From positions 1-22,064 of the IMG/VR virus record IMGVR_UViG_3300010391_000210: a DNA stretch of 22,064 nucleotides; one strand, written 5' to 3'. The position numbers and the translations under genes are program-made. Below are positions 935 to 11,256 of this stretch, piece after piece. The stretch's first letter is position 1; every line of letters starts with the position of its first letter. The notes under the pieces are model-generated. The model saw only the letters and a program-made list of their open reading frames with translations. It ran no database searches and was not told where the DNA came from. The DNA comes from a virus.

Positions 935-1450
935 ATGCGACAGATCAGCATCGCCTACCACAGCCCCCGCCTGACGCTCGGCCTGACCGGGGTATTCACT
1001 GGCGGCGTCTGCGACCGCAACGTCGCGCAGGGCATCGCCGAGAACGCCTGCCAAGCCCTCGCCGGTGAGCTTGCCGCTGCCCTCAACACCTGCGACCCCG
1101 AGGACGCCCTCCCAGAGGGCACGCCCAAAGACGACGATTCCGCCGGCCTGACCGGCTCCGTCGACCCGGCCACCATCGCCGAGAACGACGCGCTCAAGGC
1201 CGCCCTCGCCCAGATCGACGCTGGCGAACCCCTGCTGCCGACCGAGCCAGACGCGCCCACCGCCGACACCGTACCCACGCCGCAACCGACCCCACCACCA
1301 CCCGACACCGATCATGTCACCCTACCAGAGGACGTAACACCATCACCACCACAACCGAGCCCGGACAACCTACCGGGCAACCGGATGGACACGAATAACC
1401 AACCACCACAGCGTAACCGCCCGCAAACGCACGACTTCGCGAGGACATGA
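935..1450 (+). CDS. Pro-rich phage protein of unknown function
   Basis: A 171-residue protein with a strong AAAGGAGG ribosome binding site (919-926) eight bases before ATG. The first ~75 residues look folded, with Ala-rich helical stretches and two or three Cys. From about residue 95 the chain becomes Pro/Thr/Asp-rich (runs such as PTPPPPDTD) and ends in a polar Asn/Gln/Arg tail, so the C-terminal half is probably disordered. Codon choice changes in this tail: CCA and ACA replace the usual CCG and ACC, which suggests a different history or simple-repeat expansion. Its TGA overlaps the ATG of the methyltransferase fusion (ATGA), implying translational coupling. Function unknown. Confidence 0.65.
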   Translation: MRQISIAYHSPRLTLGLTGVFTGGVCDRNVAQGIAENACQALAGELAAALNTCDPEDALPEGTPKDDDSAGLTGSVDPATIAENDALKAALAQIDAGEPLLPTEPDAPTADTVPTPQPTPPPPDTDHVTLPEDVTPSPPQPSPDNLPGNRMDTNNQPPQRNRPQTHDFART

Positions 1451-3801
1451 GCGAGGATATGGACGCGGAGAGAAAAACGCGGACCCGCCCGAAGGCTCGC
1501 GCGGCCGCGGCGCCCGGGCCCCATGAGAGCCGCCTAACTGCTGACCCGCCGAGACTTACGGCCCGCCCAGACACTCTCCCAGTGGCCCAGCTTGCCGGCA
1601 TGATGGCCGCCTACAACCCCCGGCGGATCGAGGGGGAGCAGCTTGCGGCGCTGCGGGCCAGCCTGCGGGAGTTCGGGCCTGTGCAGCCGGTGATCGTCAA
1701 CGCCGCCACGGGGCGCATCGTGGGGGGCCACCAGCGGGTCAGGGCGGCGCAGGCCGAGGGCTTCCCTGCCCTGCCGGTGGTGTGGGTGGACTTGCCGGAG
1801 GCCGACGAAAAGCGCCTGAATCTGGCCCTGAACCGCATCGGTGGCCGCTGGGACGAGGGGTTGTTGGGGCGGCTGCTGGCCGAGCTACGGGACGGGGGCG
1901 TGGCCATGGGGGCTACTGGCTTCGCCTCTGCTGAGGTGGAGGCCCTGATCGAGCGGTTCCGAGGCGACCCCGACCGTCGGCGCCGGGAGCAGGCGGCCCG
2001 GACACTCTCGCACCGCTTCATCGTGCCCCCGTTCAGCGTCCTTGACGCCCGTCAAGGCTACTGGCAGGACCGCAAGCGGGCGTGGCAAGACCTCGGGCTG
2101 GTGGACGAGGCTGGCAGGGGCGACAACCTGCTGAACATGAGCCCGACGGCCATGATGCAGCGCGGCAAGGGCAGACGCCAGCCCGCAGGGCCCACGAACG
2201 GGCCCACGAAGAGCCAAGCTGGCATTGAGTCAGCGCAGGAACAGGGCCCACCAACGGGCCCACGGGGGCAGGCGCACGCGAATGCACCCCAAGGCGAGCT
2301 AACTGCTGACCCGCCCAGACTTGCGGCCCGCAAGCATGGCTCCATCCCCGAGCATCTGGACGTCAAGCGGCCCGACCCCTATCAGGAGCGCTTCGGCAGG
2401 CCCGGCCCAGCCCCGCCCACCAGCGCGACCGACCTCGAGGGGGAGGGGGGCGGCCTCCTTACGGGCACCTCTGCGTTCGACCCTGTGCTGGCCGAGATCC
2501 TAATATCGTGGTTCTGTCCTGAGGCGGGTTTGGTCCTTGACCCCTGTGCCGGTGGTCCGACGCGGGGTTTGGTGGCGGCGGCTCTTGGGAGGCGGTACAC
2601 GGGGGTTGACATTCGGGTGGGTCAGGTTGAGGCGGATCGGCTCGTAGCGGGGCCGGTGTTGGGGGTGCTGCGGCAGGAGAGGACGGTGGTCCATGAGCCG
2701 GTCTGGCTCGTAGGGGATGGGCGGGAGGTTGGTGGTCTGGGGTTGGAGGCGGACTTTGTGTTGACGTGTCCGCCGTACTACGATCTTGAGCGGTATTCTG
2801 GGGAGCCTGCGGACCTGAGTAATGCGGCGAGCTACACGGAGTTTCTTGCGGGGCTGCTGGCGATGCTGCGGGGGGCGGCTAACCTGTTGAAAGTAAATAG
2901 GTTCTTCGCGATTGTCGTGGGCGAGATTCGGGAGCAGGGGGGGGCGCGGTTTTACCGGCGGTTCGTGCCTGACGTGATTGATATTCTGCTGGGGGCGGGG
3001 CTGAGCTACTACAACGAGGCGATCCTTGTGACGGCGGTGGGGAGCTTGCCGATCAGGACGGCGCGGGCGTTCGAGGCGTCGCGCAAGCTGGGGAAGACGC
3101 ACCAGAATGTCCTCGTGTTCGTGAAGGGGGATCCGCGGCTGGCGACGAAGGCATGCGGCGAGGTGCAGGCGATCCGGCCCACGGCCCACAAAGAGGCGCC
3201 GGCGGCAGCGGCTCTTGTGGCCCCGGCTGACGACGGGCGGGTGGCCGTCAAGGTTTCAGGGCGGTGGCTGCGGACGCTCTGGCACGGCTGCGACCCCGAC
3301 TACATCCGCACCACCTGCCACGCGGCCTGCTGCGACAGCAGCACCGGCCCGGCGCGCGTGGCTGTCCTGCCGGACGAGGCCGTCCGCCTCGCCGACAAGT
3401 ACGGCTATGCATCGTCCGGCGGGATGCTGCTGCCGGCCGGGAAGCTCTGCCCGTTCAAGACCGCCGATCACCTCTGCGGGCTGCATACGACCGGGCTGAA
3501 CTGGAGCCCCAAGGAGGCGCCGACAGACAAACCGTTCGGTTGCCGCGTCTCACCGTTCACCATCAACAAGGGCAACACCCTCGTGATCAGGCACCGCTAT
3601 GTCTCGCTGCGTTGCCACAAGGACGAGGCGACGATGCCTGCTTACCGCGCCTTCGGCAATAGCCTCGACATTCTGTTCGGAGCCGATGCGGCTGCCCGCA
3701 TCGTGACCGCAGTCGAGGCCGGGGCAGAGGCGATCGCTGCGCGCATGCTACCGGCCGCCTATGAGGCCCTGCGCGTGAACGATCAGACCCGGCACGCATG
3801 A
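1447..3801 (+). CDS. ParB-like / DNA methyltransferase / YkgJ-like Cys-cluster fusion protein
   Basis: 784 residues with three recognisable parts. Residues about 45-185 form a ParB/sulfiredoxin-type domain with NPRRI and GGHQR (G93-R97). A linker rich in Gly, Pro and Gln follows. Residues about 345-580 are an S-adenosylmethionine-dependent DNA methyltransferase with motif I DPCAGG (from D365) and catalytic motif IV TCPPYY (T440-Y445); N6-adenine or N4-cytosine is expected from that motif. Residues about 610-730 resemble the YkgJ zinc- or iron-chelating domain: C615, C624, C628/C629, C668, C677 and C699 in CRVSPF. ParB-methyltransferase fusions are common in phages, where they probably modify phage DNA against host restriction. 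The added Cys-cluster domain is unusual. Codon usage of about 2510-3180 (many GGG, TTG, GGT) differs from both flanks, suggesting a swapped-in methyltransferase cassette. Overlaps both neighbours by ATGA. Confidence 0.85.
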   Translation: MSEDMDAERKTRTRPKARAAAAPGPHESRLTADPPRLTARPDTLPVAQLAGMMAAYNPRRIEGEQLAALRASLREFGPVQPVIVNAATGRIVGGHQRVRAAQAEGFPALPVVWVDLPEADEKRLNLALNRIGGRWDEGLLGRLLAELRDGGVAMGATGFASAEVEALIERFRGDPDRRRREQAARTLSHRFIVPPFSVLDARQGYWQDRKRAWQDLGLVDEAGRGDNLLNMSPTAMMQRGKGRRQPAGPTNGPTKSQAGIESAQEQGPPTGPRGQAHANAPQGELTADPPRLAARKHGSIPEHLDVKRPDPYQERFGRPGPAPPTSATDLEGEGGGLLTGTSAFDPVLAEILISWFCPEAGLVLDPCAGGPTRGLVAAALGRRYTGVDIRVGQVEADRLVAGPVLGVLRQERTVVHEPVWLVGDGREVGGLGLEADFVLTCPPYYDLERYSGEPADLSNAASYTEFLAGLLAMLRGAANLLKVNRFFAIVVGEIREQGGARFYRRFVPDVIDILLGAGLSYYNEAILVTAVGSLPIRTARAFEASRKLGKTHQNVLVFVKGDPRLATKACGEVQAIRPTAHKEAPAAAALVAPADDGRVAVKVSGRWLRTLWHGCDPDYIRTTCHAACCDSSTGPARVAVLPDEAVRLADKYGYASSGGMLLPAGKLCPFKTADHLCGLHTTGLNWSPKEAPTDKPFGCRVSPFTINKGNTLVIRHRYVSLRCHKDEATMPAYRAFGNSLDILFGADAAARIVTAVEAGAEAIAARMLPAAYEALRVNDQTRHA
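1534..1566 (+). repeat. 33-bp direct repeat, copy 1
   Basis: Matches 2299-2331 at 31 of 33 positions and is in the same reading frame, so both copies encode the peptide core LTADPPRL followed by Thr or Ala, then Ala-Arg. This copy lies just before the ParB-like domain. Confidence 0.8.
2299..2331 (+). repeat. 33-bp direct repeat, copy 2
   Basis: Second copy of the 1534-1566 repeat, placed in the linker just before the methyltransferase domain. The linker upstream (2185-2270) also contains four copies of GGGCCCAC. Together these make the linker look like a recombination or duplication product. Confidence 0.8.
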
Positions 3802-4175
3802 ACTACCGGCAGGCGCGCGAGCGGATGGGGCCCGGCGGCGAGGCCACCGGGCTGTGGGACTGGACCACTATGCGCGACAAGAAGGTCTGGCCCGATGGCG
3901 CCTGCCGGGAGCAAGCCTGCGTCCACCAGACGGCCGAGGCCGCCGAGCATCACGAGTGGTCGCGGCGGACGGCGATCGTGGTGCGGACGACCGACCGCGA
4001 CAGCCTGCTCCGCTGCCGCGTGTGCAAGGACTGGACGCATGGGCGCCTGAGCCTGCCGCTGGGCGAACACCCGCCGGAGCGGGCCCCCTGCTGCGCGGTG
4101 CATGAGGACGGCGTGAGCGTCTGGCGCAAGCTGTACCCCTTCGCGCCCGGCATGCAGGAGATCGCCTCGTGGTAG
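3798..4175 (+). CDS. Cys/His-containing hypothetical phage protein
   Basis: 125 residues, starting at an ATGA overlap with the methyltransferase fusion, so probably co-translated. It contains CREQAC, a CRVC pair and a CC pair with nearby His residues, consistent with metal binding but not matching a family I can name. It ends in TAG at 4173-4175, one base before the next ATG. Reading on past this TAG gives an Arg/His/Pro-rich shadow sequence inside the next gene, so here TAG looks like a true stop. Function unknown. Confidence 0.65.
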   Translation: MNYRQARERMGPGGEATGLWDWTTMRDKKVWPDGACREQACVHQTAEAAEHHEWSRRTAIVVRTTDRDSLLRCRVCKDWTHGRLSLPLGEHPPERAPCCAVHEDGVSVWRKLYPFAPGMQEIASW

Positions 4176-4176
4176 G

Positions 4177-4590
4177 ATGGGCGGCATGCTGAACGGCCGC
4201 ATACCCAACCTGATCGACACCACGGCCCGACCCGGCGTGCCGCCGCGACCGCTGGCGGTCGGCATGGTCGTCGACTACACCAACCCCGTTGGGGAGACGC
4301 GCCCGGCGCTGGTGACCAAGATCATCGGCGCATGGCCGCAGCAGGAGATCCCGGGCAACCTGCCGGGGGCCAACCTGACCCCGATGCCGCTCCTGAACAT
4401 CGCCTACGTCGCCCCTGATAAAATCTCCGTCGACGGCTACGGCCGGCAGGTCGTGCGCGAGACGGATGTGCCCCACGCCTCGACGCGCCGCTATGTCGGG
4501 CCCTGCTGGGAGTTCGGGTGGGAAAGAGCAAGCGATACCGCAGCGAGCGCATCAGTCGGATCGACACCATCGCCCTCGTCGGCGCCCTGA
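4177..4590 (+). CDS. conserved-type phage hypothetical protein upstream of terminase
   Basis: 137 residues from ATG 4177; an in-frame ATG at 4186 is equally possible, and neither has a clear ribosome binding site. The body (VGMVVDYTNP, RPALVTKI, then a beta-rich segment ending VGPCWEFG) resembles small proteins often found near packaging genes in phages of high-GC hosts, with alternating beta strands and a Trp near the end. The last ~24 codons overlap the terminase small subunit start in another frame and encode a Ser/Ala/Pro-rich tail, so the conserved part probably stops near residue 113. Function not known. Confidence 0.65.
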   Translation: MGGMLNGRIPNLIDTTARPGVPPRPLAVGMVVDYTNPVGETRPALVTKIIGAWPQQEIPGNLPGANLTPMPLLNIAYVAPDKISVDGYGRQVVRETDVPHASTRRYVGPCWEFGWERASDTAASASVGSTPSPSSAP

Positions 4591-4955
4591 GCGCCGGCGC
4601 CGATGTTGCCCTCGCCTGCCGCGCCCTGAACCTGCCGCTGGCGGTCGTCTACCGGAAGATGCAGCGGGACGAGCCGTTCCGCCGCAAGATGAACGAGGCG
4701 CGCGCCGTCGCCGATGGCGCCGTCGTCGCCCGCCTCTACGACAAGGCGTGCAGCGGCGATGTGGCGTCGATGATCTTCTGGCTCAAGAACAGGCGCCCGA
4801 AGGAATGGCGCGAGCGCCCGGATGAGTCGCGCCAGCCCGGCACCCGTAACTACAACTTCAACCTGACGCTGGTCGCCAACGGCCCGCGCGGCAAGCTGGG
4901 CTCCGGCAGGACCATCACCCTGCCCCCGATCACCGCGGCGCTGCCGGGCGCATGA
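4518..4955 (+). CDS. terminase small subunit (TerS)
   Basis: 145 residues starting at GTG 4518, with GGGAG (4508-4512) five bases upstream. Residues about 15-55 form a helix-turn-helix-like region (GADVALACRALNLPLAVVYRKM in outline), followed by helical segments and the motif DVASMIFWLKNRRPKEWRER, which is typical of phage small terminases. TerS recognises the packaging site on phage DNA and loads the large subunit. It overlaps the preceding gene by 73 bases and meets TerL at an ATGA junction, as expected for the pair. Confidence 0.85.
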   Translation: MGKSKRYRSERISRIDTIALVGALSAGADVALACRALNLPLAVVYRKMQRDEPFRRKMNEARAVADGAVVARLYDKACSGDVASMIFWLKNRRPKEWRERPDESRQPGTRNYNFNLTLVANGPRGKLGSGRTITLPPITAALPGA

Positions 4956-6462
4956 CCCGCATCCCCAACAAGAGCGCCCGCACACACCTCGCCCGCCCGC
5001 TGGAGGAAGACGGCCCCGAGAGCAAGGTCGATGTCCAGATCGGGCTCCTGACCCACCAGTACGATTTCATGCACGCTGACGACTTCGCCGTGGCGCTGGT
5101 CAGCGGCCTCGGGGCCGGCAAGACGTGGGTGGGGACGCTGTGGTCCGAAATGAAGGCCCTCGCCAACCCGGGCGTCAAGGGGCTGGTCTTCGCCAACACC
5201 TACCGGCAGTTGAAGGGCGCCACACTGGACCGGCTCGTCAAGCACCTCGGCGACCACGGCGTCCCCTACGACCTCAACCGCACCGATATGATCCTGAACC
5301 TTGAGGGTGGCACCGAGGTCTACCTGCGCTCGACGGAAAACTTCGACGACCTGCGCGGCGTCGAGTTCGGCTGGGCCTACGGCGACGAGGTGCGGGACAT
5401 GGAGAAGGGCGCCATCGACGTCATCCGCGGCCGCCTGCGCGATGCCGCCTGCGATGCGATCGAGCTGCGCCTGACCACCACGCCTGCCGGCATGAACTGG
5501 ATCTATATGGACTTCAAGCTCCGGCCGATGGAAGCGCGCGCCGCGCTCGAAGCCGCCGGGGCGACATTGCCGCCGTGCCGGTGGGCCTGCGGACCTACCT
5601 CGGCTATCGCCTGATCACAGCCACCAGCGACGACAACCCCTACCTGCCCGAGCAGTACATGCTCATCCTCGAAGGCTACGACCCCCTCATGGCCGAGCAG
5701 GAGCGGCGCGGCAAGTTCGTCAACATCTACAGCGGCCGCTGCTACCCCATGTTCGACTTCGACGCCTCGGTCAGCAGCCGCGCCAGCTACCAGCCCGGCT
5801 TGCCGATCGCTGCCTGCTTCGACTTCAACAGCAGCTACCCGGCGCCCATGGCCTGCGTGCTGGGGCATGACGTCAAGGGCGATGCATGGGCCTTCGACGA
5901 GATCGCCATCGCCGGCGGCAATACCCCGGAAGTCTGTGCCGAGATCATCAACCGCTACCCGCACCACCGCGCCGGCATCTGGATCTACGGCGACGCCACC
6001 GGGCAGACCAAGGGCGCCACCACCGGCAAGTCCGACTATGCGGTCATCGCCGAACACCTGCGCGGCTACCGCGGCTTCCGCATGGTCACCGAGCGGCGCG
6101 ACAACCCGCTCGTCGTCGACCGCATCGCGGCGGTCAATGGCAAGCTCTGCCGCGCCGACCAGACCCGACACCTGATCGTCCACCCGCGCTGCAAGGAACT
6201 GATCCTCGACCTCGATCAAGTGTGCTGGAAGCCGGGGACGCGCGTCATCGACAAGAGCAACCCCCTGCGGACGCACCTGAGCGATGCCGCCGGCTACTGG
6301 GTCCACGAGGAATGGCCCCTCCAGATCGGCCCGGCGGTGGCCGCCAGCAGCCGCGGCGCCGACAGCACGGCGCAGCGGTACGCCAGCGCCGCGCGCCGTG
6401 GTAGCATCGCTGCAACGGGCGGCGTCCGGCAGTCGATCAGCACGGGCCGGCGCCCCTACTGA
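4952..6462 (+). CDS. terminase large subunit (TerL), coding frame changes by -1 near 5558
   Basis: The two halves together give about 503 residues, the normal size for TerL, the ATP-driven motor and nuclease that cuts and packages DNA. The first frame (4952-5614) holds Walker A SGLGAGKT (residues 51-58), Walker B WAYGDE (D145, E146) and the coupling motif LTTTP. The second frame (open from about 5521 to TGA 6462) holds the RNase H-like nuclease with Asp residues at base 5821 (FDFN), 5992 (GDATG) and 6283 (SDAAG). The frames join best at GGGG 5558-5561: either one G is missing from the sequence, or ribosomes slip -1, or two polypeptides are made, the second from GTG 5575. No good ribosome binding site precedes that GTG, which weakens the last option. 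Confidence 0.85.
5558..5561 (+). other. -1 frame change within terL
   Basis: At GGGG the frame with the ATPase ends sensibly (EALEAAG in outline) and the frame with the nuclease begins (GDIAAVPVGL). One added G would restore a single ORF. No classic X-XXY-YYZ heptamer is visible, so a homopolymer error or a real deletion is as likely as programmed slippage. Confidence 0.6.
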
Positions 6463-8088: not shown

Positions 8089-11000
8089 ATGCCGGCCACG
8101 GCGAAGCAGCTTCAAAAGGCGGTTGACGACACCAACCGGATCCTCCGGGAGGCGCGCACCGCCCTGCGCCAGCAGAGCGAGTTCCTCAAAAAGCGGTTCG
8201 AGGCGCTGTCGGTGCAGCTTGGGGGGCTGACGGCGCCCAGCGCCTTCACCGTCGAGCATCTGGCCGCGCTGCGCGCCAGCGTCGATTAGGCGGTCCAAAG
8301 TCTGAACCTCGACCTCCAGTCCGGGCTAATGGACGGCATGAAGGGCATGGCCGCCCTCGGCACCAAGGCGGCCATCATGCCGCTCAAGGGACTGCCGGCG
8401 GGCTTCGGCAGCCTGACCGCGCTGACCGGCATCAGCGGCCCCGTGGCGCTGGTGCAGGCGCGGTTCAGCGCCGACCTCATCCTCGAAATCACCGCCGGGC
8501 TGCGGAAGGAGATCAACGGCGCCATCCAGCGGGCCGTGATCGGCGCGGACTTCAGCCGCGGCATCCCGACGCTGGAGAAGATCCTGAGCGACGCCGGGGC
8601 GCTGACCTACCGCAACCGCGCCGAGGCGATCTTCCGCACCGAAACCCAGCGCGTCGCCAGCATGGCGACCGATGCGGTCGGGCAGCAGATGGCCGACCTC
8701 AACCTCGACGTGGTGAAAATCTGGCGCTGGAGCGGCATCAGCCGCGAGAACCACGCCGCTATCGACGGGCAGTTGCGCGAGCTTGACGGATTCTTCGACG
8801 TGCCGCCCCCGGCCACCATGAAGGCCCCTCCCAACCCGACCGATTACGCCGGCGGCGAGCGCGCCCGCTGGCCCCGCTGGCCCAGCCTGAGCGCCGCGAA
8901 CTCGATCAACTGCGGCTGCATGATGCTCTTCATCGACCGCGAGACGGCGGCCAGAATGGCTCGACGGCAGGGGAGCGCGCAGTTCGCCATGACCAAGCCC
9001 GCGGGCCCGAAGCCGGCCGGGCAAGCCCCCGAGCAGGCTGTCAGCAACGTCGTCCCCTTCCCGGCAGCGAAAGCGGTGCCGGTGCTGGCAGAGATCGTCG
9101 CTGGCCCGGCGCAGGAGATTGCCGCGGCCTCACAGGAGGTGATCAGTAGCGCCCTCGCCGATGCGGCGGCGGCGGCGCAGGCGGCCAAGGCGGCTCTCAA
9201 GGCCGCCGAGGACGCGGCCAAGGAGGTCGAGCGGGCGGCGAAAGCGGCGGCGGCGGCGCAGGCGGCGGCCAAGGCGGCCGCGGTGAAGGCGGCCGCGCAA
9301 GCGCATGCGCCGATGACCGGCGGCATCTACATCACCGCCCCGGCGCAATCGCAGGCGGCGAAGCTGGCCGGCGGCATTCCGAAGTCGCTGCGCCTGCCGG
9401 ACGGCTCGACGGCGACCCTGCTGCGCTCCAGCGGCGGCAGCACCCCGGGCGGCTTTTACAGCACCGATGCTGGCAAGACGGTCCTCATCAAGTGGCCCAA
9501 CGCGGTCGGGCAGGCCGGCGCCGAGGTCGTCAGCACCGCCCTCGCCGATGCGATGGGCCTGCCGAGCGCCTCGGCGCAGATATTCGCGCTGGGCGATCCG
9601 GCGGCGACCGGGCTGGTGGGCGTGATCAAGCCGTCCGTAAAGTTCGAGCCGCTCAAGATGCCCGCCGGCGGCTTCAAGAGCCCGGGCGATCTCAAGGGGA
9701 TCAATGCGGCCGACCTGACCGACCAGTTCGTCCACGCCGCGCTGACCGGCAACTGGGACGCTGTCGGCCTCGAGTTCGACAACCTCGTCCTCAAGGACGG
9801 GAAGCCGATGGTGCTGGACTTCGGCGGCTCGCTGCTCTGGCGTGCGCAGGGCGCCCTCAAGCCGTCGTTCTTCGCAGAGGTCGGTGAACTGACGACCTTG
9901 CGGAACCACGTTACGGCCCCGCAGGCGAGCACGGTGTTCGGGTGGCTGTCGCCGGGCGAGATCGCCGATCGCATCAAGGTCAAGCTCGCCACACTGACCG
10001 ATGAGGCGATCCGGGCAGCGGTGGGGCGCGGCGGCTTCGGGGCGGACATTGCCGGGAGCATCGCCAAGGCCCTCATTGCGCGCCGCGACTACATGCTGGC
10101 GTGGGCGAAGGAGACGCTAGAGGCGTTGTGGAAACAGGCTGCCGCGGCCTCGACAGCCACCGCCACCAAGGTCAAGGTCAAGCGGCCAGCCGGCATCAAG
10201 GTGCCGGGCGTCCCGACCAAGGTGACCTTCAAGACCGCCACCGAGCGGTTCGAGACGGCTGCCGGCTATCTGGGGATCGCCGACGCCGAGGCGCTCCAAA
10301 AGATCAAGGGTTACGTCGCCGAGTACGAAGCCAACCAGGCGGCCGGATCGGACGTGGGCTCGCGCCTGCTGGCCTACCTGCGCTCGTTCAGGGGGGACCG
10401 CTACGGGCCGCTGGCCGACGTGGTGTTCAAGGATTTCGAGACGAGCGTCTTCTCACAATGGTCCGGTAGTTCGACCTCTGGTCTGGGGGCAGCGTTGCAG
10501 CACATCGTTGGCCGGGCACTCGGCCCGGGCTTCAAGACCTACATGGACATCCCGGACGCAGCGACATTCCCGCAGAAGGCATTAGAACGGTACATGCTGC
10601 CGCTGCTGCAAAGTCTGTTCGATCGGGCCAAGGCCGGCGTCCGCGTGACCGAGGACGACCTCATCGACTGGGCCCGGCGCCGCATCGCCTACATGGTCGC
10701 TTCCGATCACCGACGGGCGGTATCGAAGGCCATTTTCCGCGGGATCTCATTGAGCGAAGAGTCTGCCACGATGCTCATGCGCCAGATGCTCGGCGATGTG
10801 GCTGGCGAGAGCGAGGACGCGCTGATCTTCCACAGCACCGCCTCGTCGTGGTCCTACAAGGCCAGCGAGGCGCACCGGCGTGGGCAGTCAGCGTGGGGCG
10901 TCGTCTTCGAGGCGCGCACCAACTATGCAGCGGCCTTCGCCGAGTATTTCGAGGGCAGCGATTATCTCGCCCATGGGGCCAGGGAGGCCGAGCGGATCGT

Positions 11001-11256
11001 GCTGGGCGGGCGGCCTATGGCGATCAAGAAAGTGGTCCTGACGGTGGGCCTCAACGACAGGGTGAATCTCGTGCGCGCCGAGGCTGCCTCGCGCGGCACG
11101 GCTTCGGTCGTCTACGGTGGCAAGCCGAAAAATCCTTCCAAGGCGCAGGTGTTGGCGGTGCGGCTCTGGAAGCTGGGGCGGCTGGAGGTGCGCGACGTGC
11201 CCGACGCGATCATGCAAGGGGCCTACGACTACTTCAAGAAGCTGGGGGCGTTCTGA
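8089..11256 (+). CDS. MuF/SPP1 gp7-like minor head protein with kinase-like and ADP-ribosyltransferase-like domains (in-frame TAG at codon 67)
   Basis: Read through TAG 8287-8289, the product is about 1,055 residues; without readthrough it splits into a 66-residue ORF and a 975-residue ORF from ATG 8329, which lacks a ribosome binding site. Residue numbers below count from ATG 8329. Residues ~35-200: MuF/SPP1 gp7 head-morphogenesis domain (ENHAAIDGQ, NCGCMM). Residues ~265-328: Ala/Lys-rich helical linker. Residues ~350-520: HipA/phosphoinositide-kinase-like fold with VLIK (K388), E399, NWD (D477) plus FDN (N485) and LDFGG (D497). Residues ~790-905: ADP-ribosyltransferase-like, with FRG (R804), HSTAS (S836) and EAE (E886/E888), the R-S-E pattern. 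MuF proteins with C-terminal toxins are a known class of phage polymorphic toxins; this kinase plus ART layout is unusual. Toxicity and virion delivery are inferred. Confidence 0.75.
8287..8289 (+). other. in-frame amber codon in the MuF-toxin gene
   Basis: Context GAT TAG GCG. The frame stays open before it (66 codons) and after it (988 codons), and both sides look like one helical N-terminal region. CAG to TAG is a single transition. The nearest downstream ATG (8329) has no ribosome binding site. Confidence 0.75.

Follow-up and report, generated by a model that had tools for sequence, protein, structure and literature searches.

What is a cysteine-rich domain doing at the end of a phage DNA methyltransferase? 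The question is raised by a single gene in a viral genome known from one complete IMG/VR record of 22,064 bases, the whole of which was analyzed here and is called the window. A reading made from the sequence alone had proposed that this gene joins a ParB domain, a methyltransferase, and a YkgJ-like cysteine cluster in one polypeptide, a combination unfamiliar to it, and that the cluster might hold a metal and act in a step beyond methylation. The triple fusion is borne out, as the gene is a single intact frame running from ATG to stop over 784 codons, in which Pfam recognizes both ParB_N and N6_N4_Mtase (Table 1). It is recurrent rather than unique, however, as ParB, methyltransferase, and Cys domain also occur in this order in one protein in viral loci L101 and L111. 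Because the order recurs there, and because other layouts with the same partner are found in many contigs, the fusion is not an assembly accident. The recurrent joining of Cys domain and methyltransferase suggests a joint, undescribed chemical change to viral DNA.

The first two parts of the protein are of a familiar kind. Between them lie a segment in which F191, P195, W206, R209, and W213 are invariant among 36 aligned sequences and a linker whose pLDDT in the structure model is below 50 over residues 228-267 and 273-342. In the case of the methyltransferase, the Pfam N6_N4_Mtase match (E 4.5e-8) falls around residues 348-393, the match to PHROG_498, a phage DNA methyltransferase family, extends to residue 576 (E 2e-99), and the fold resembles, among many others, TrmN and Trm11, which are tRNA guanine-N2 methyltransferases. 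Motif IV reads CPPY, with Cys in 67 of 68 family members where amino-methyltransferases usually have D, N, or S, and is an unusual form of the amino-methyltransferase motif. It does not have the arrangement of the C5-cytosine methyltransferases, whose catalytic Cys lies in the PC of motif IV. The motif is followed by Tyr in 37 of 68 members lacking the Cys domain versus 2 of 30 readable members with it; a specific link between the residue at this position and the domain was considered and not accepted, as small residues also occur without the domain and clades confound the comparison.

With a ParB domain and a class I methyltransferase carrying motifs I and IV, the protein groups with the ParB-methyltransferases of ParB-TerL loci (PHROG_498), sharing their ParB, middle region, CPPY methyltransferase, and position before terminase. 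In the window, the fusion lies just upstream of the terminase genes, which are followed by portal and head genes. The split of the large terminase reflects a frameshift, whether programmed or present in the sequence itself. Two open reading frames between fusion and terminase (3798-4175 and 4177-4590) match no Pfam or PHROG family. According to the part of the literature available to us, the region between ParB and terminase is a recognized home of phage DNA-modification genes, where ParB-methyltransferase fusions are common (PMC6536676, citing Iyer et al. 2013).

Table 1. Features of the fusion protein and neighboring genes in the window
Feature	Position	Strand	Basis
ParB–methyltransferase–eight-Cys (PF03692-like) fusion protein, 784 aa	1447..3801	+	ORF check, Pfam, PHROG
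ParB-type domain, residues 41-180 (Pfam ParB_N 55-121)	1567..1986	+	Pfam E 4.6e-7; PHROG_620 E 4.6e-34
Conserved region common to the ParB-methyltransferase family, residues 187-225 (LSHRFIVPPFSVLDARQGYWQDRKRAW...)	2005..2121	+	alignment
Linker, low confidence, probably disordered, residues 228-340	2128..2466	+	pLDDT
Class I SAM-dependent methyltransferase domain, residues 340-576	2464..3174	+	Pfam, PHROG, family alignment, fold comparison
Methyltransferase motif I, DPCAGGPTRG, residues 365-374 (family consensus DPFAGGSVRG)	2539..2568	+	family alignment
Loop joining helix B to strand 3 (residues 411-418); no insert in the window	2677..2700	+	profile break, structure model
Methyltransferase motif IV, CPPY, residues 441-444	2767..2778	+	family alignment
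Eight-Cys PF03692-like domain, residues 598-778	3238..3780	+	relatives' Pfam scores, hhalign, AlphaFold2 model
C615, invariant	3289..3291	+	alignment
C624-x3-C628-C629 cluster (CHAACC)	3316..3333	+	sequence, alignment
C668 (CPF) and C677 (CGLH)	3448..3477	+	alignment
C699 in KPFGC	3541..3543	+	alignment
C723, invariant	3613..3615	+	alignment
Terminase small subunit	4518..4955	+	PHROG_309 E 2.8e-11
Terminase large subunit, two overlapping frames (4952-5614, 5575-6462)	4952..6462	+	PHROG_2 on both halves

At the other end of the protein, the six cysteines originally named as a cluster (C624, C628, C629, C668, C677, and C699) are all in place, and two that had been overlooked, C615 and C723, bring the set to eight. 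Across 37 aligned Cys-domain sequences, C615, C624, C628, C668, C677, C699, and C723 never vary, and C629 is all but constant, the exception being a Glu in L084 (CE for CC). A K/R-P pair, the stretch RNRY, and further non-Cys positions are also strongly conserved in this alignment; RNRY, basic and aromatic in character and RHRY at window residues 715-718, adjoins C723. The AlphaFold2 model of the domain (pLDDT 89.7, pTM 0.85) has one clear match among viral predicted structures (E 2.8e-16, TM 0.82), a stand-alone phage protein previously annotated as 'Zinc- or iron-chelating domain containing protein.'

Residues 598-778 of the window protein match no Pfam or PHROG family directly, and this copy is too diverged for Pfam to detect. 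Its relatives are more informative: against a curated Pfam cut-off of 23 bits for PF03692, the stand-alone domain of L086 scores 24.6 bits and a Cys-methyltransferase fusion from a Smithella MAG 28.1 bits. PF03692 proteins gathered from 40 bacterial genomes carry the same eight cysteines as the phage domain, in the order C..C..CC..C..C..(R/K)PxxC..C. When the phage branch was compared with these bacterial proteins by hhalign, E-values (each for one comparison) were 6.4e-5 and 6.7e-6, with probabilities of 64 and 85%, and the cysteine motifs, including CxF, Cx(I/V/L)(H/Y), and (R/K)PxxC, were in register where aligned. The family alignment was needed, as a comparison with the single E. coli YkgJ sequence was uninformative. 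Bacterial YkgJ proteins (PF03692, COG0727) are mostly small and free-standing with CxxCxxCC, whereas the phage branch has C-x8-C-x3-CC and the conserved RNRY segment. The relationship shown through these relatives makes the Cys domain a probable distant branch of PF03692 (YkgJ/FliB), and the YkgJ-like label given by the sequence-only reading holds at the superfamily level. The possibility that the C-terminal region is a methyltransferase extension unrelated to YkgJ was also examined; because the domain is encoded elsewhere as a free-standing gene, it is not a mere extension. Neither should it be called a radical SAM enzyme, since the classical motif CxxxCxxC is absent: the window has C624-x3-C628-C629-D-S631, and no such motif stands in the conserved columns of the alignment. 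The confident model does not show a radical SAM fold, with no PDB match at E < 1 by Foldseek and no VIA match with a Z of 2 or more, and neither the Cys-domain profile nor YkgJ retrieved a relative from the PDB.

When relatives of the full-length protein were collected from viral contigs, 80 in all, a separately encoded C-terminal domain turned up in one of them (L051), at 34% identity (E 2e-25) and with the eight cysteines kept. Iterated scans with the Cys domain alone found 6, 16, 40, and then 42 viral loci (overlapping sets), while a first scan of genome contigs gave no matches and a second gave two MAG contigs only. With near-copies removed, 41 distinct loci remained, or about 42 with the window, and their layouts were assigned by HMM searches over all reading frames. 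The same methyltransferase family is encoded in the same protein or within 8 kb in 37 of these approximately 42 loci (window included), against a background rate of 25 in 50,697 named phage records. Fifteen loci place both in one reading unit: the Cys domain is inserted within the methyltransferase in ten (L084, L089, L092, L095, L096, L102, L106, L108, L119, and L120, the L095 form being split by a frame change), C-terminal to it in three (the window, L101, and L111), and N-terminal in two (L083 and L100). In 22 loci the Cys domain has a gene of its own near that of the methyltransferase, within 3 kb in most and farther in L051 and L114; the order is ParB, methyltransferase, Cys in L183 and L197, and the methyltransferase of L175 is a weak partial match at a contig end. 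No methyltransferase was seen at five loci, of which L105, L117, and L121 lie at contig ends and L109 and L112, lacking such a methyltransferase in 40 kb and 74 kb of record, respectively, are real exceptions.

The Cys domain is thus a real, mobile domain. On a maximum-likelihood tree of Cys domains, in which many deep branches are weak, the three C-terminal fusions need at least three separate changes and, as the tree is reconstructed, cannot share one origin; by this evidence the domain has been joined repeatedly and independently to one methyltransferase family. In most members of that family the protein stops just beyond the methyltransferase domain, with no Cys domain and all motifs kept. 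The published descriptions of ParB-TerL loci available to us make no mention of a PF03692 domain.

The inserted forms reveal where a second domain is accommodated. There, the match to the methyltransferase profile is interrupted near position 69/70, between the helix that comes after motif II and the strand leading to motif III; in the window model the loop at this site runs between helix 391-410 and strand 419-422. The ParB-methyltransferases of Pseudanabaena phage Pam4 and Erythrobacter phage ZS04, which have the same methyltransferase, break at the same point and carry PALP (PLP-type) enzymes there (E 1.7e-9 and 4.4e-11), where other phages have the Cys domain. These inserts are located at L081 7027-7833 and L082 3472-4227, and Erythrobacter phage R6L gives the same two-piece methyltransferase match. 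In L051, a stand-alone PALP enzyme and an LPG_synthase_C-like protein are encoded beside the stand-alone Cys gene. Because PALP and Cys inserts share a site, and L051 carries these two genes beside Cys, one methyltransferase type is used with different extra enzymes, and the common insertion site suggests a modular platform. On the class I fold, this loop presumably faces away from the SAM and base pocket, which favors tethering of a second activity over reshaping of the active site; the inserted domains would therefore be tethered rather than part of it. Replacement of a target-recognition domain by the insert was rejected, as the insertion, flanked by helix B and strand 3, is remote from the base pocket. 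The LPG_synthase_C-like protein (L051 1-651; PF09924, E 1.3e-10) is possibly another base-decorating transferase.

Taken as a whole, we give about an even chance to a reading in which the ParB-methyltransferase and a probable [4Fe-4S] Cys domain jointly hypermodify a base of phage DNA. The ParB domain and conserved middle region would place the enzyme on phage DNA, the class I methyltransferase domain with its CPPY motif would transfer a group from SAM to an exocyclic amino group of the base, and the eight cysteines of the PF03692-type domain would most likely hold a [4Fe-4S] cluster. On that base the Cys domain would then perform or enable a second step, dependent on SAM or on redox chemistry, and the resulting hypermodified base could shield phage DNA from host nucleases. 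We infer strongly that Cys domain and methyltransferase belong to one DNA-modification pathway, and less firmly that the Cys domain binds iron-sulfur rather than zinc, by analogy with FliB, and that its role is catalytic. Several points count against this reading: the window copy falls short of Pfam significance, the insertion loop presumably lies opposite the SAM and base pocket, L109 and L112 show no such methyltransferase, L084 has CE for CC, and CxxxCxxC is absent. The metal and the step beyond methylation suggested by the sequence-only reading fit the evidence, and the chance of new DNA chemistry is sizeable.

The Cys domain could instead be a structural module that probably binds zinc and assists the methyltransferase in binding or selecting DNA, with ordinary m6A or m4C as the product. 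We consider this less likely, as eight invariant cysteines are more than would be expected of a zinc module, the domain is also a separate gene kilobases away, the insertion site also hosts a PALP-type enzyme domain, and most methyltransferases of the family retain all motifs without it. An accessory module could, like the Cys domain, be joined to its partner in every possible order, and both the annotation of PF03692 as zinc- or iron-chelating and the conserved basic and aromatic residues next to C723 are in keeping with such a role.

The argument for iron-sulfur draws on FliB, a flagellin lysine N-methylase likened here to the phage branch by description. In FliB, a CX4CX3CC motif of the PF03692 type binds a [4Fe-4S] cluster that SAM-dependent methylation requires; eight cysteines of the enzyme are conserved, and a radical mechanism has been suggested for it (PMC8598068). 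The CxxxCC core, eight conserved cysteines, and SAM-linked chemistry are common to FliB and the phage branch, but neither a Rossmann methyltransferase nor a ParB part is present in FliB. It is also the only biochemically characterized relative that we found, and its targets are protein lysines (PMC8598068), which raises the alternative that the substrate methylated by the Cys domain is a protein (of the virion or the host, or even the methyltransferase) and not DNA; the ParB-TerL location, and the fact that the domain has repeatedly been fused to or inserted into a DNA methyltransferase, point to DNA and make this improbable. Iron-sulfur domains can also act as sensors, and a redox or iron sensor switching the methyltransferase on or off might lie anywhere relative to it. 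Such a role is highly improbable for a domain that is also found unfused, sometimes more than 3 kb away (L051 and L114), that occurs at least once with no such methyltransferase in 74 kb (L112), and that takes the place of another enzyme domain in sister phages. A chance or decayed fusion without function is barely credible, for although the branch of the window copy is long and extra residues are inserted locally near position 685, this copy retains all eight cysteines and the other family-invariant residues, and L101 and L111 acquired the same order of domains independently.

Joint hypermodification by a methyltransferase and a second enzyme has a parallel in the CmoX/CmoY cytosine system (PMC12783734). 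CmoX systems, which make carboxymethylcytosine and build on it, are accompanied by ParBc genes, and, as proposed for the window, a phage methyltransferase-like enzyme is followed by a second modifying enzyme with ParBc often nearby. They differ in having the motif SPPC, a carboxy-SAM donor, and an AMP-forming ligase, and no Fe-S domain is mentioned for them (PMC12783734).

At the Cys-domain loci, the ParB-methyltransferase platform was already known; what is new is that it is systematically paired with a PF03692 domain and that the insertion site is shared with a PLP enzyme. We found no published description of YkgJ or PF03692 paired with phage methyltransferases in the open-access literature, although a mention in Iyer et al. 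2013 is possible. Although PF03692 is a large family in bacteria and archaea, we know of almost no biochemistry for it, and its link to a methyltransferase across dozens of phages, in several layouts and at least three separate C-terminal fusions, offers a testable substrate class, DNA bases. More tentatively, the PF03692 branch may be a new iron-sulfur DNA-base-modifying class, SAM-using and outside classical radical SAM, with the CPPY methyltransferase as a shared platform that takes either this domain or a PLP enzyme to yield different hypermodified bases. If this is true, iron-sulfur chemistry would join phage DNA hypermodification, and modified bases able to evade restriction systems are predicted.

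Other genes were noted at these loci and their relatives. PAPS reductase was rejected as a general partner, PF01507 being absent from 16 Cys-bearing records; ZS04 has an annotated similarity to it, and a match next to L086 is weak and below the cut-off. In L011 (5432-6703) and L014 (5474-6730), an Asp/Asn beta-hydroxylase-like domain (PF05118) is joined to the ParB-methyltransferase at its C-terminus, and the stretch before this domain resembles GNAT on visual inspection; in L086 (5161-6363), L121, and L122 the domain is encoded by a separate gene adjoining the ParB-methyltransferase. Directly before the Cys gene of L117 lies a GP88 family protein with a cysteine-rich N-terminus (215-1000; PF17338, E 4.8e-41). 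In the window, a Mu F-like head protein of 975 aa (8329-11256) has a long extension with the conserved pattern NWDxxG...N...D(F/N)GGSL(L/R)xRAQG, which also occurs in L083 (12768-15311) and looks kinase-like by eye. The archaeal virus HCTV-2 carries a YkgJ-type gene (L161 2052-2564; PF03692 19.9 bits, below the cut-off) about 1 kb upstream of a ParB-methyltransferase gene, and the association may therefore extend to archaeal viruses.
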